From the NCBI RefSeq assembly GCF_040782645.1, contig NZ_CP160403.1, positions 8,715,001-8,779,000 of the forward strand: a stretch of DNA of 64,000 nucleotides. Reading direction: 5' to 3'. A model generated the notes under the pieces. It searched no databases, was not told where the DNA came from, and worked only from the letters and a program-made list of their open reading frames with translations. The stretch's first letter is position 1; every line of letters starts with the position of its first letter. The position numbers and the translations under genes were made by a program. Of this stretch, positions 23,068-60,738 are shown one piece after another. This DNA is from Streptomyces sp. HUAS ZL42. Lineage in GTDB: Bacteria; Actinomycetota; Actinomycetes; Streptomycetales; Streptomycetaceae.

Positions 23068-24153
23068 ATGTCTCACCAGGTCCGCGCTGTCGTCGCCCGG
23101 GGGAAGGGCGCCCCCGTCAGCCTGGAAACGATCATTGTGCCCGACCCGGGCCCCGGTGAGGCGCTGGTGAAGATCGAGGCCTGCGGGGTCTGTCACACCG
23201 ATCTGCACTACCGCGAGGGCGGCATCAACGACGACTTCCCCTTTCTCCTCGGGCACGAGGCGGCGGGTGTGGTGGAGTCGGTGGGGGAGGGCGTCACCGA
23301 TGTCGCCCCCGGCGACTTCGTGATCCTCAACTGGCGTGCGGTGTGCGGGCAGTGCCGGGCCTGTCTGCGCGGGCGGCCGTGGTACTGCTTCGACACCCAC
23401 AACGCGAAGCAGAAGATGACCTTGCTCGACGGCACCGAGCTGTCTCCGGCGCTGGGGATCGGTGCGTTCGCGGAGAAGACGCTGGTGGCGGCCGGGCAGT
23501 GCACCAAGGTCGACCGGGCCGCGTCGGCGGCGGCCGCCGGTCTGCTGGGCTGTGGCGTGATGGCGGGCATCGGCGCGGCGATCAACACCGGGAACGTCGG
23601 GCGGGGCGACTCGGTCGCGGTCATCGGCTGCGGCGGCGTCGGGGCCGCGGCGATCGCCGGGTCGAACCTGGCCGGCGCGGCGAAGGTCATCGCGGTGGAC
23701 ATCGACGACCGGAAGCTGGAGACCGCTAGCAGGCTGGGCGCGACGCACACCGTCAACTCCAAGGACGCCGACGCGGTCGAGGCGATCAGGGAGCTGACCG
23801 GCGGCTTCGGTGCGGACGTGGTGATCGAGGCGGTGGGCCGCCCGGAGACGTACAAGCAGGCGTTCTACGCCCGCGACCTGGCAGGGACGGTGGTCCTGGT
23901 CGGCGTGCCGACCCCCGAGATGAAGCTCGAACTGCCGCTGCTGGACGTGTTCGGGCGAGGCGGCTCGCTGAAGTCCTCCTGGTACGGCGACTGCCTGCCC
24001 TCGCGCGACTTCCCTATGCTCATCGACCTCTATCTCCAGGGACGGCTCGACCTGGACGCCTTCGTCACGGAGACCATCGCGCTGGACGAGGTCGAGAAGG
24101 CCTTCGAGCGGATGCACGGCGGCGACGTGCTGCGCTCGGTGGTGGTGCTGTGA
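23068..24153 (+). CDS. mscR: S-(hydroxymethyl)mycothiol dehydrogenase (copy 1)
   Basis: 361-residue zinc-dependent medium-chain dehydrogenase that oxidises the formaldehyde-mycothiol adduct with NAD, the actinobacterial route of formaldehyde detoxification. Catalytic zinc site [14 protein letters not shown] and [12 protein letters not shown]; structural Zn cysteines [15 protein letters not shown]; Rossmann [15 protein letters not shown] at 23068 with GAGGAG upstream is preferred over GTG 23062. It overlaps the MBL-fold gene by one base (TGATG). Formaldehyde would come from betaine and sarcosine demethylation by neighbouring enzymes. About 80% similar by eye to the second copy at 51928. Confidence 0.92.
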
Positions 24154-24785
24154 TGGCCGGTGCGCGCATCGAGCATCTCGTCACCTCGGGGACCTTCTCG
24201 CTGGACGGCGGCACCTGGGACGTCGACAACAACGTGTGGATCATCGGCGACGACACCGAGGCCGTCGTCGTGGACGCCGCACACGACGCCGGGGCGATCG
24301 CCGAAGCACTCGGCGGGCGGACCCTGCGGGCCATCGTGTGCACCCACGCCCACAACGACCACATCGACGCCGCGCCTGAGCTTGCCGCGCGCACCGGTGC
24401 CCCCATCCTGCTCCACGGCGACGACCTGCCGCTGTGGAAGCAGACCCACCCGGACCGGGCGCCCGACGGCGACCTGGCCGACGGCCAGGTCATCGAGGTG
24501 GCGGGTGTCGAGCTGACCGTGCTGCACACTCCCGGGCACGCCCCGGGCGCGGTCTGCCTGTACGCGCCTGCCCTGACGGCCCTCTTCAGCGGTGACACGC
24601 TCTTCGCGGGCGGGCCGGGGGCGACGGGACGGTCGTACAGCGACTTCCCCACCATCATCGGCTCGATCCGGGACCGGCTGCTGGCCCTGCCGGGCGGCAC
24701 CGTCGTGCACACAGGGCACGGGGACACGACGACCGTCGCCGCCGAGGCGCCACACCTTCAGGAGTGGATCGACCGCGGCTTCTGA
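24153..24785 (+). CDS. MBL-fold hydrolase paired with mscR (copy 1)
   Basis: 210-residue metallo-beta-lactamase-fold hydrolase. Metal motif THAHNDHIDAAPEL (HxHxDH), then LHTPGHAPG and [17 protein letters not shown], and the final His in VHTGHGDTTT. Coupled to mscR by a one-base overlap. The pairing, repeated at 53010, suggests that it hydrolyses S-formylmycothiol to formate and mycothiol (inference from context; not proven by motif). ATG at 24153; GTG at 24150 is an alternative. Confidence 0.8.
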   Translation: MAGARIEHLVTSGTFSLDGGTWDVDNNVWIIGDDTEAVVVDAAHDAGAIAEALGGRTLRAIVCTHAHNDHIDAAPELAARTGAPILLHGDDLPLWKQTHPDRAPDGDLADGQVIEVAGVELTVLHTPGHAPGAVCLYAPALTALFSGDTLFAGGPGATGRSYSDFPTIIGSIRDRLLALPGGTVVHTGHGDTTTVAAEAPHLQEWIDRGF

Positions 24786-24903
24786 CCGCCACCGGGGACC
24801 TTCGTGCGGGCGCCCGTTCCGCCTGTTCGCGCAGGTGGTTCGGGCGCTTCGCGGTGCCCGGCGGTCCATCGGCCGGCCCGTGCGAAACGGGCCTTTGGAC
24901 GCC

Positions 24904-24933
24904 TTGACAACGGTTCAGGGCGGCCCGCAGACT
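24904..24933 (+). promoter_or_regulatory. Promoter of ferredoxin-reductase operon (copy 1)
   Basis: -35 TTGACA (24904-24909), 18-bp spacer, CAGACT (24928-24933), directly followed by operator-like sites. The rest of the 195-bp gap 24786-24980 shows nothing else. Confidence 0.5.
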
Positions 24934-24936
24934 GAC

Positions 24937-58025: not shown

Positions 58026-59281
58026 CCCTGTTCAACCAGTCCCTGCACGAGGCCGACCCGGAGATCGCCGCCGCGGTCGACGCCGAGCTGAACCGTCAGC
58101 AGTCCACGCTGGAGATGATCGCCTCGGAGAACTTCGCTCCGCTCGCGGTCATGGAGGCGCAGGGCTCGGTGCTGACCAACAAGTACGCCGAGGGCTACCC
58201 GGGCCGCCGCTACTACGGCGGCTGCGAGCACGTCGACGTCGCCGAGCAGATCGCGATCGACCGGATCAAGGAGCTGTTCGGCGCCGAGTACGCCAACGTG
58301 CAGCCCCACTCCGGTGCCTCCGCCAACCAGGCCGCGCTGTTCGCGCTGGCCCAGCCCGGCGACACCATCCTGGGCCTGGACCTGGCCCACGGCGGCCACC
58401 TGACCCACGGGATGCGGCTGAACTTCTCCGGCAAGCAGTTCAACGTGGTCGCCTACCACGTGGACGTGGAGAGCGGCCTGGTCGACATGGCCGAGGTCGA
58501 GCGGCTCGCCAAGGAGCACCGGCCGAAGGTGATCATCGCGGGCTGGTCGGCGTACCCGAGGCAGCTGGACTTCGCCGCCTTCCGCCGCATCGCCGACGAG
58601 GTCGAGGCGTACCTGTGGGTCGACATGGCGCACTTCGCGGGCCTGGTCGCGGCCGGTCTGCACCCCAACCCGGTGCAGTACGCCGATGTCGTCACCTCCA
58701 CCACCCACAAGACGCTGGGCGGCCCGCGCGGCGGCATCATCCTGGCGAGGAAGGACTTCGCCAAGAAGCTCAACTCGTCCGTCTTCCCGGGCTTCCAGGG
58801 CGGTCCCCTGGAGCATGTGATCGCGGCGAAGGCGGTCTCCTTCAAGGTCGCCGCCTCGCAGGAGTTCAAGGAGCGCCAGCGCCGCACGGTCGAGGGCGCG
58901 CAGATCCTCGCCGAGCGGCTGACCGCCCCCGACGCCCGCGCGGCCGGCGTCAACGTCCTGTCCGGCGGCACCGACGTGCACCTGATCCTGGTCGACCTGC
59001 GCGCCTCCGAGCTGGACGGCCGGCAGGCCGAGGACCGCCTCCACGAGGTCGGCATCACGGTCAACCGCAACGCCGTCCCCGACGACCCGCGCCCGCCGAT
59101 GGTGACCTCGGGCCTGCGCATCGGTACGCCCGCCCTGGCCACCCGCGGCTTCACCGCCGAGGACTTCGCCGAGGTCGCGGACGTCATCGCGGAGGCGCTG
59201 AAGCCCTCGTACGACGCGGAGACGCTGAAGACCCGCGTGAAGGCACTGGCCGACAAACACCCGCTGTACCCCGGCCTCTAG
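58022..59281 (+). CDS. glyA: Serine hydroxymethyltransferase
   Basis: 419-residue PLP enzyme. Signatures [51 protein letters not shown], and the PLP lysine in [14 protein letters not shown]. Combines glycine with methylene-THF to give serine, consuming both the glycine and the C1 unit made from betaine. ATG overlaps the stop of the H-like gene. Likely a pathway-specific paralogue. Confidence 0.95.
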
Positions 59282-59303
59282 GGCCCGTTGACAACCTCCC
59301 GCA

Positions 59304-59334
59304 GGGGTGTGCGGGCTCATGCTCGGCACACCCC
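59304..59334 (+). terminator. Hairpin between glyA and sdaA
   Basis: Perfect 9-bp stem GGGGTGTGC (59304-59312) with GCACACCCC (59326-59334), 13-nt loop, in the 74-bp gap. Partial terminator or attenuator between the two genes. Confidence 0.5.
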
Positions 59335-59355
59335 GCCCACCTCACGGAGTATGGC

Positions 59356-60738
59356 GTGGCAATCAGCGTCTTCGACCTGTTCTCCATCGGTATCGGCCCG
59401 TCCAGCTCGCACACCGTCGGCCCGATGCGCGCCGCCGGGATGTTCGTCGCCCGGCTGAAGCAGGACGGCGTGCTCGCCCAGACCGCCTCGGTACGGGCGG
59501 AGCTGTTCGGCTCCCTCGGCGCGACCGGCCACGGCCACGGCACGCCCAAGGCGGTGCTGCTCGGCCTGGAGGGCAACGAGCCGCACACGGTCGACGTCGC
59601 CCAGGCCGACCTGGACGTGGACCGCATCCGAGGCACCGGGCGCATCCGCCTCCTCGGTACCGAGATCGGCCCGGTCCACGAGATCGACTTCGACCTCAAC
59701 ACCCAGCTGGTCCTGCACCGTCGCCGCTCGTTGCCGTACCACGCCAACGGCATGATCCTCTTCGCGTACGACGCCGACGGTGTGCCGTTGCTGGAGAAGA
59801 CGTACTACTCGGTGGGCGGCGGCTTCGTCGTGGACGAGGACGCCGTCGGTGCGGACCGGATCAAGCCCGACGACACGGTACTGGCCCACCCGTTCCGCAC
59901 GGGCGACGAACTGCTGCGGCTCTCCCGGGAGACCGGTCTGTCGATCTCCGCCTTGATGCTGGAGAACGAGAAGGCCTGGCGCACCGAGGAGGAGACCCGC
60001 GCGGGTCTGCTGGAGATCTGGCGGGTCATGGAGGCCTGTGTCTCCCGAGGTCTAGGCCGCGAGGGCATACTCCCCGGCGGACTGAAGGTCCGTCGCCGGG
60101 CCGCGGCCGCGGCCCGGGCGTTGCGCAGCGAGGGCGAGCCGGCCGTCCGCGCGTTGGAATGGGTGACGCTCTACGCGATGGCGGTGAACGAGGAGAACGC
60201 CGCAGGCGGCCGGGTCGTCACCGCCCCGACGAACGGCGCGGCGGGCATCATCCCCGCCGTCCTGCGCTACTACCTCGACTTCGTGCCGGGCGCCGACGAG
60301 GACGGCATCGTCCGCTTTCTGCTCGCGGCCGGCGCCATCGGCATGCTCTTCAAGGAGAACGCCTCCATCTCCGGCGCCGAGGTCGGCTGCCAGGGCGAGG
60401 TCGGCTCCGCCTGCTCCATGGCCGCGGGCGGACTCGCCGAGGTGCTGGGCGGCAGCCCGGAGCAGGTCGAGAACGCCGCCGAGATCGGCATGGAACACAA
60501 CCTCGGCCTGACCTGCGACCCGGTCGGCGGCCTGGTCCAGATCCCCTGCATCGAACGCAACGGCATGGCCGCCGTGAAGGCCGTCACCGCCGCCCGGATG
60601 GCCCTGCGCGGCGACGGACGCCACCACGTCTCCCTCGACAAGGTCATCAAGACCATGAAGGAGACCGGCGCCGACATGAAGATCAAGTACAAGGAGACCG
60701 CCCGCGGCGGTCTCGCCGTCAACGTCATCGAGTGCTGA
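59356..60738 (+). CDS. sdaA: L-serine ammonia-lyase (single-chain, Fe-S)
   Basis: 460-residue iron-sulfur serine deaminase. Beta domain starts [25 protein letters not shown]; the catalytic domain has [14 protein letters not shown] and the cluster cysteines in [15 protein letters not shown] and [14 protein letters not shown]. Converts serine to pyruvate and ammonia, the final step linking betaine carbon to central metabolism. GTG at 59356 preceded by GGAG. Confidence 0.94.

Follow-up and report, generated by a model that had tools for sequence, protein, structure and literature searches.

Three routes for the demethylation of glycine betaine (GB), namely GbcAB, Bhmt and MtgBCD, are named in an excerpt of PMC12478193. 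Arthrobacter dmg/sox clusters have been described (Meskys 2001 and Suzuki 2005, as cited in an excerpt of PMC3534580), and the same excerpt reports that Arthrobacter sp. Rue61a grows on GB, although genome analysis labelled its GB route 'incomplete'. For dimethylglycine (DMG), passages of PMC13083937 present DgcB as the EtfD homologue of the DMG pathway and describe DgcB and FadF as lacking the D1 cluster cysteines. Among the literature titles and abstract openings surveyed, none announces a three-component actinobacterial GB demethylase or a bacterial DMG oxidase (DMGO) linked to electron-transfer flavoprotein (ETF). Here, we analyzed a 64,000-nt stretch from Streptomyces sp. HUAS ZL42, hereafter the window (positions 8715001–8779000 on a single 9,866,886-base contig; GC content 0.67–0.74). 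With a probability of roughly 0.78, we consider its positions 23068–60738 a coherent catabolic cluster leading from choline/GB to pyruvate.

Genes were called with a codon-usage gene caller and the proteins were scanned with NCBIfam/TIGR/PRK and Pfam models and their curated cut-offs. Gene calling reproduced exactly the limits proposed in an earlier note on this DNA, from the start of FDH1 (23068) to the end of sdaA (60738). The region opens with cassette 1 (FDH1, MBL1, Fd1, FdR1, Oxy1 and IclR1), continues with a choline module (betA, a gene for an MTHFR-like protein, an alpha/beta hydrolase gene, betB and an ABC transporter), an ETF module (GntR, EtfD, etfA, etfB and DMGO_A) and folate genes (folD, folP and purU) with Fd2 and IclR2, and closes with FDH2, MBL2, MSOX, Oxy2, FdR2, gcvH, glyA and sdaA, followed by a broken fdhD. 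Curated cut-offs were passed by both mycothiol-dependent formaldehyde dehydrogenases (FDH), BetA, ProV, the choline-type permease, FolD, PurU, FolP, GlyA and both Rieske ferredoxins; BetB, the substrate-binding protein, EtfA, EtfB, the ferredoxin reductases, the metallo-beta-lactamase-fold (MBL) hydrolases and the IclR and GntR regulators matched the right family but scored below them. The choline/GB-to-pyruvate cluster claimed in the earlier note is real, its named genes being recovered by family models (a few under equivalog cut-offs), and recurrence of the same gene set across other genomes makes it more than chance. Its pathway reading, its combination of mycothiol and folate one-carbon (C1) routes in one locus and its 'three-component Rieske system in place of GbcA/GbcB' fit the comparative evidence from family models, linkage, clade tree and genus co-occurrence. 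Additions to that account are the duplication, besides the oxygenase, of FDH, MBL hydrolase, ferredoxin, reductase and IclR, together with gcvH, GntR, the broken fdhD just downstream and a common palindrome.

With functions, substrates and electron routes read from sequence, the ABC transporter would import choline or GB, and BetA and BetB would oxidize choline to GB. A three-component Rieske N-demethylase (Oxy, a Rieske ferredoxin and a GR-type NAD(P)H reductase) would convert GB to DMG and formaldehyde, the latter being turned into formate by mycothiol FDH and MBL hydrolase. DMGO_A would produce sarcosine from DMG, loading the methyl group as 5,10-methylene-tetrahydrofolate (THF) and passing electrons via EtfBA and EtfD to menaquinone. 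The monomeric sarcosine oxidase-type protein (MSOX), or DMGO_A itself, would release glycine, which GlyA would combine with methylene-THF to give serine, and SdaA would form pyruvate and ammonia; FolD and PurU would discharge surplus C1 units as formate. Candidates exist for every step to pyruvate, and to this extent the label 'near-complete' stands; formate oxidation, however, is not provided by the cluster, since fdhD is broken and the cluster proteins scanned include no formate dehydrogenase. The fdhD remnant (60773–61393, +; PF02634 positions 139–236 only) consists of the last part of the gene behind a moaA-like start (moaA by our own reading); the gene is intact after sdaA in the related genomes G007 and G013, and an intact fdhD lies elsewhere in this genome at 2.18 Mb. 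The pathway is largely predictable, and the news is the enzyme choice at two steps, GB demethylation and DMG oxidation.

For the first of these steps, the Rieske oxygenase Oxy1 (26656–27786, +) is proposed as GB N-demethylase and is accompanied by its paralogue Oxy2 (55040–56173, +; 82% identity). With the GbcA model NF058607, they reached 224.8 and 223.3 bits, respectively, against a cut-off of 670, and both cassettes carry a Rieske ferredoxin and a GR-type reductase rather than a single FNR-type GbcB. We rejected GbcA as their name on account of these scores and because the cut-off was passed by none of 394 genomes of the class. Among these, 48 genomes in seven families carry the Oxy clade at >600 bits and eight carry GbcA-like proteins (372–415 bits). 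All 23 clade rows of a 41-protein tree display the group V (quaternary amine) features, a CxxC pair and a Glu preceding the first of the iron-binding His residues, which we take to mark this group. The motif is shared by Oxy1 and Oxy2 (ENFMECYHCATIH); in eight of the 18 non-clade rows (seven GbcA-like proteins and CntA), the pattern was unmatched and the motif was not read. An excerpt of PMC10952381 gives the CxxC pair near the iron as a feature of quaternary-amine Rieske oxygenases. In the tree, which has several long branches, arbitrary rooting and no bona fide GbcA row, the clade rows grouped together on a long stem with 100/100 support, apart from seven actinobacterial GbcA-like rows that joined Sinorhizobium, Paracoccus, Ruegeria and Aminobacter proteins.

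The clade occurs in Arthrobacter, Pseudarthrobacter, Kocuria, Amycolatopsis and other genera. The best 80 of at least 586 matching loci in named genomes are all actinobacterial by title, and the first eight are Streptomyces with 94–97% oxygenase identity. Among 411 matches in 72,556 plasmid records, one from Nonomuraea shares 71% identity and the other 410 less than 60%, with 39 listed after Nonomuraea at ≤32.3%. As the searches scored few candidates per genome (five or six for the clade, up to four for GbcA and three for DMGO), extra copies per genome may be missed. These data delineate an actinobacterial clade of its own, which is far from GbcA and usually has three-component partners. Judged by its sequences and gene neighborhoods, it is the best candidate for the GB demethylase so far missing from actinobacteria. 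Separately, locus L151 (G208) contains two different Rieske oxygenases of a 200–270-bit group at 8.5–12.7 kb, with starts ~3 kb apart, and similar pairs occur in several other class genomes, for example, G262, G118, G101, G155 and G338.

Gene linkage places the clade in the proposed pathway. Among 295 genomes of the genus, 139 carry the oxygenase clade and 136 a DMGO homologue; both are present in 135 and neither in 155, leaving four genomes with only the oxygenase and one with only the DMGO homologue. In G461, one of these five, dmgO appears as two matched pieces adjoining the oxygenase. We further compared a class-wide set of 49 oxygenase loci (~20 kb each) from 46 genomes with the 80 named loci. 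At least one other pathway gene lies within ~10 kb of the oxygenase in 46 of 49 class-wide and 72 of 80 named loci, a DMG- or sarcosine-oxidizing enzyme in 37 and 55, an IclR gene in 42 and 63, and both ferredoxin and reductase in 31 and 65. In the f19 loci L107 (3819–6140) and L116 (10875–13232), a long frame lies between oxygenase and IclR, where the reductase would be expected; in L107, Pfam identifies the product as a molybdopterin oxidoreductase, which we read as formate dehydrogenase-like.

Within the window, the oxygenases belong to duplicated cassettes. The first holds the S-(hydroxymethyl)mycothiol dehydrogenase FDH1 (23068–24153, +; TIGR03451, 698 bits), MBL1 (24153–24785, +), the Rieske-type [2Fe-2S] ferredoxin Fd1 (24981–25343, +; NF007422, 151 bits, cut-off 113), the GR-type reductase FdR1 (25355–26503, +; start uncertain; HcaD/AndAa family, below cut-off) and IclR1 (27788–28585, −). 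Their counterparts are FDH2 (51928–53013, +; 684 bits, cut-off for both copies 513), MBL2 (53010–53642, +), Fd2 (47646–48083, +; NF007422, 152 bits; real start probably ~47706 by alignment to Fd1), FdR2 (56410–57591, +; also GR-type, below the ferredoxin reductase family cut-off) and IclR2 (49102–49899, −). Both MBL hydrolases adjoin an FDH and resemble MBL/GloB proteins below cut-offs, MBL1 being a probable S-formylmycothiol hydrolase; the regulators match IclR-type families, likewise below cut-offs. Paralogues are 83% (IclR), 79% (Fd) and 57% (FdR) identical. In the tree, Oxy1 groups with the first copy of G013 and Oxy2 with the second copy of G007, the only copies of these genomes included. 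Identities of 0.91 between Oxy1 and the first and between Oxy2 and the second G007 copy, compared with 0.81 between Oxy1 and the second, and dN/dS values of ~0.08 and ~0.18 between orthologues indicate, together with the tree, that the duplication predates these species and that both copies were retained. The two G013 copies are closer to each other (0.88) than Oxy1 to Oxy2, which may reflect gene conversion.

At the second step, DMGO_A (43872–46376, −; GCV_T and DAO by Pfam) is proposed as an ETF-linked, THF-dependent DMG dehydrogenase. It carries DAO, FAO_M and GCV_T in the order of DMG oxidases/dehydrogenases, along with the active-site residues. We take His51 to be the site of covalent flavin attachment, His224 and Tyr255 to belong to the active site and Asp545 to the folate domain; all four are conserved in 33 of 33 DMGO_A and 49 of 49 DMGO_B proteins. 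DMGO_B denotes the 38–39% identical homologue that G013, G009, G033, G024 and G026 carry instead, together with a 27–28% SoxA-type match; by our own reading of the frames, the order in G013 is dmgO, folD, soxB, soxA region, soxG-like and folP. Forty positions differ consistently between the two types, including the flavin-His neighborhood and residues 357–360. Only four of the 295 genus genomes carry DMGO_A and 132 have only 38–42% identical homologues; the counterparts in G007, G022 and G632 share 95%, 97% and 94% identity with DMGO_A, compared with 38–42% for other homologues of the genus.

All four genomes have etfB, etfA, EtfD and GntR genes beside DMGO_A. Across the class, DMGO_A at ≥59% identity was found in 32 of 296 genomes, counting that of the window. 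Two of the 31 loci besides the window end at the gene; in all 29 readable ones, from several families, etfB follows on the same strand 3–24 bases downstream, joined by etfA in 28. Immediately upstream of DMGO_A, 16 of the 31 loci have a GntR gene. DMGO_B is present at 46 of 80 named and 36 of 49 class-wide oxygenase loci, 82 in all, of which 72 can be read for 1.5 kb or more downstream. None of the 129 oxygenase loci, these 82 included, contains an etfA, etfB or EtfD match. In the f28 genome G226, which has no oxygenase-clade match, a BCCT betaine/choline transporter gene (L185, 4985–6763) stands between proX and DMGO_A.

The remaining module in the window comprises etfB (43052–43822, −) and etfA (42066–43055, −), matching the ETF beta and alpha families below cut-offs, an EtfD paralogue (38935–41784, −; Fer4 and CCG; 641 bits to the EtfD structure 9ojn) proposed as ETF:menaquinone oxidoreductase, and a GntR regulator (38160–38741, +; start uncertain; GntR-type families, below cut-offs) proposed to control it. 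EtfD has ligand motifs for four Fe-S clusters and heme and adjoins the ETF genes; the heme ligand His241 and the motif-to-ligand match were aligned by eye to the ligand list in an excerpt of PMC13083937. A second EtfD, 53% identical and with a short tail, is encoded at 4.65 Mb. The cluster copy has a repeat-rich tail (residues ~748–949) with 11 [SG]LFD repeats, a feature that the second EtfD lacks; similar repeats occur in the G007 and G022 proteins. This tail could bind ETF. From the etfB linkage, the protein previously read as DMG oxidase-like, with its etfBA and second EtfD, is most likely an ETF-linked DMG dehydrogenase rather than an oxidase, and the DMG step appears to feed the respiratory chain, not oxygen, unlike in most relatives.

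Several observations weigh against the reading of the locus as a choline/GB-to-pyruvate cluster with these enzyme choices. Related genomes inflate the genus co-occurrence count, so a Fisher value for oxygenase and DMGO overstates the case. In 18 of 49 class-wide and 15 of 80 named loci, the stretch showed no ferredoxin–reductase pair, so three components beside the oxygenase are not universal. No pathway gene was seen at three class-wide loci (G241, G365 and G181) and eight named loci; in G241, DMGO lies ~20 kb away and ferredoxin, reductase, FDH and IclR genes are kept at the oxygenase, and among the named loci, L241, L243, L249 and L257 are shortened by contig ends and L220, L277, L287 and L288 are full length. 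The acceptor of DMGO_A, O2 or ETF, is not readable from its residues, and G007 combines the ETF version with a cluster-encoded MSOX and a SoxB elsewhere. The TTGCN7GCAA palindrome described below was rejected as an actinobacteria-wide operator (17 occurrences versus 15 for a reversed control in 25 other loci, 21 from other genera and four from Streptomyces). Finally, the oxygenase shares only ~30% identity with carnitine and rhizobial relatives, so the assignment of GB as substrate rests on gene context. Its best PDB matches are the demethylase-type structures 3vca, presumably stachydrine demethylase Stc2, and 4qup, followed by 3n0q and the carnitine oxygenase 6y8j. The enzyme might, thus, act on another quaternary or tertiary amine, such as DMG, carnitine, stachydrine or choline, with GB being demethylated otherwise. 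We regard this as quite unlikely, given that linkage to betA/betB and to the DMG and sarcosine enzymes leaves exactly the GB-to-DMG step unfilled. Moreover, G189 and G188, which lack the Oxy clade, have a GbcA-like gene beside soxBA, purU and dmgO, as if either protein can fill the slot. A GbcB-like FAD/NAD/Fer2 reductase adjoins this gene in G189, and the frame tested as partner in G188 gave no Pfam match; support for a GbcB-like partner, therefore, comes from G189 only. Seven GbcA-like loci were tabulated, leaving out G158 on a 3.5-kb contig; three contain dmgO, two of these also soxBA, and four no pathway gene. It is also unlikely that the two cassettes have come to serve different substrates, such as GB and another betaine. 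Although they sit in different neighborhoods, the choline and sarcosine modules, and both oxygenases look old and under purifying selection, residues 189–360 of the catalytic domain are almost identical in Oxy1 and Oxy2, and genomes with a single copy still keep neighboring pathway genes. The two oxygenases of the earlier note are both present, and they look like retained duplicates rather than two activities.

On the DMG side, DMGO_A may be an ordinary H2O2-producing oxidase, with etfBA and etfD serving other dehydrogenases, for example, in fatty acid oxidation. It has the same active-site residues as the DMGO_B type and scores 509 bits to DMGO (1pj5) versus 294 bits to dimethylglycine dehydrogenase (4pab). 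The invariable position of etfB in all readable loci of several families, the absence of ETF matches from the DMGO_B loci and the second EtfD elsewhere in the genome make such an oxidase distinctly improbable. Returning to the ETF-linked dehydrogenase, we tentatively advance a broader scenario that we hold to be possible, with the odds against it: a respiratory module of GntR, DMGO_A, EtfBA and second EtfD might, in a small number of Streptomyces, have taken the place of SoxBDAG and of the oxygen-consuming DMG oxidase, with DMGO_A perhaps performing both remaining demethylations and loading both methyl groups onto folate, and with the EtfD tail docking its own ETF as an insulated wire to menaquinone.

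The distribution of sarcosine enzymes bears on this scenario. MSOX (53873–55021, +) has sarcosine oxidase 7exs as its best PDB match (303 bits) and passes the cut-off of PRK11259, an N-methyltryptophan oxidase model, with TIGR01377 below. It is present in the window, G007 (92%) and G632 (65%) and was not found at E 1e-30 in G022 or in five f28 genomes with DMGO_A; among ten genomes, SoxB exceeded its cut-off only in G013 and G007. In G022 (99% complete, DMGO_A version), the thresholds applied revealed no MSOX and no SoxB, and three f28 genomes with one DMGO match (G226, G287 and G296) have no MSOX and no SoxB over cut-off. Because of these genomes, we propose that DMGO_A may also act on sarcosine; weaker DAO-family matches in some of them could also take this substrate.

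Folate and glycine metabolism are represented by folD (46677–47537, +; NF010789, 473 bits, cut-off 401), a folP-type dihydropteroate synthase (DHPS) gene (48263–49114, +; TIGR01496, 294 bits, cut-off 163), the formyl-THF deformylase gene purU (50011–50883, −; TIGR00655, 350 bits, cut-off 286), glyA (58022–59281, +; NF000586, 603 bits, cut-off 335) and the serine dehydratase gene sdaA (59356–60738, +; PF03313 and PF03315). A reading of FolP as an MtgA-type corrinoid methyltransferase was rejected on its DHPS score. A gcvH-like H-protein gene (57588–58025, +; PF01597, 90.5 bits, over cut-off; TIGR00527, 100 versus 116) is tied to the ETF version (window, G007 and G022), with no match in 129 other oxygenase loci.

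In the choline module, betA (28735–30405, +) encodes a choline dehydrogenase by TIGR01810 (865 bits, cut-off 732) and by its best PDB match, 9lq0 (636 bits); choline oxidase was rejected at 267–275 bits. The betB-type betaine aldehyde dehydrogenase gene (32264–33733, +) scores 594.7 bits against a TIGR01804 cut-off of 668.6, still its best family. Transport would involve a proV-like ABC ATPase (33754–34845, +; TIGR01186, 356 bits, over cut-off), a permease whose single chain contains two permease domains (34842–36848, +; two BPD_transp_1 stretches; TIGR03416 over cut-off) and a substrate-binding protein (36862–37836, +; TIGR03414, 51 bits, below cut-off). The role of the MTHFR-like (MetF-like) protein (30457–31245, +; PF02219, 21.1 bits, cut-off 24) is uncertain. 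The nearest solved fold to its AlphaFold model (pLDDT 82) is Sphingobium SYK-6 MTHFR (7xg9; TM 0.80, 29% identity), an enzyme paired with LigM in the title of PMC12585457, and the protein may oxidize methyl-THF; no donor enzyme was recognized in the cluster. Eight f21 loci (L205–L212) have an MTHFR-like gene and a partial match to a GcvT-type protein in the vicinity of DMGO_A and etfBA; in L211, the only one scanned, this match is a GcvT-only protein, and a formate-THF ligase is also encoded. This arrangement may represent demethylation by way of folate, perhaps as an alternative means of dealing with betaines. Between the MTHFR-like gene and betB lies an alpha/beta hydrolase gene (31258–32100, +; PF00561), of a kind also present in an Acinetobacter carnitine operon (L302), whose product may release choline or betaine from esters.

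A common palindrome, TTGCN7GCAA, is a candidate IclR operator. It occurs five times in the window (0.34 expected): 43 bases before Fd1 (24938–24952), before Oxy1 (26552–26566), in the IclR1/betA divergent region (28651–28665), at the IclR2 start (49892–49906) and before FDH2 (51762–51776). No copy precedes DMGO_A, folD, Fd2 or FdR2. Several positions recur in relatives when compared by eye, and 20 Streptomyces loci (L215–L234) contain 52 copies versus eight of the reversed control. By eye, six genomes with the DMGO_B version (G013, G009, G033, G024, G026 and G398) have a copy at the dmgO start. DMGO_A lacks one in all four genus genomes that carry it. The extended form GTTGCN7GCAAC is slightly enriched genome-wide (ten places versus seven for the control), with four of the ten in the cluster. 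A candidate GntR site, TGATATACCA (46405–46414), lies before DMGO_A; this sequence or its complement precedes DMGO_A in the window and G022 and was not found there in G007 or G632.

The Oxy clade thereby puts a concrete name to the candidate GB demethylase that actinobacteria have lacked; it occurs in Arthrobacter, strain Rue61a itself lying outside the comparison. The oxidase and ETF versions of the cluster would constitute a natural experiment in which methyl oxidation either pays into respiration or generates H2O2, and the cluster offers an ETF–EtfD pair with one likely donor.

Compared with known systems, the locus resembles GbcAB/BmoAB of Pseudomonas and Chromohalobacter in its quaternary-amine Rieske oxygenase, inferred reaction and pathway slot, and no beta-subunit gene was seen beside Oxy, as in those systems. 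It differs in the low GbcA score, the separation of its clade from actinobacterial GbcA-like proteins and the use of a Rieske ferredoxin and GR-type reductase where GbcA partners with one FNR-type GbcB. SYK-6 MTHFR remains the closest fold to the MetF-like protein but is distant in sequence, and among the cluster proteins scanned here, no GcvT-only methyltransferase was recognized. With mammalian dimethylglycine dehydrogenase, DMGO_A shares FAD and folate domains and ETF as inferred acceptor, although it is nearer to bacterial DMGO and has its own ETF and EtfD genes in the cluster. As with mycobacterial EtfD (9ojn) and Pseudomonas DgcB, EtfD would act as a wire from ETF to quinone; its D1 cysteines are kept, unlike those of DgcB as described in the excerpted text, and it differs from both in its [SG]LFD tail and in the second EtfD copy of the genome. 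The Arthrobacter dmg/sox clusters, as far as the cited excerpt describes them, likewise unite glyA, sdaA, purU and sarcosine oxidase, along with DMG oxidase (at another locus in strain Rue61a), and relatives such as G013 keep this type. Here, a transporter, betAB, oxygenase cassettes and mycothiol enzymes are added, and DMGO_A, etfBA, etfD and MSOX replace DMG oxidase and soxBDAG.

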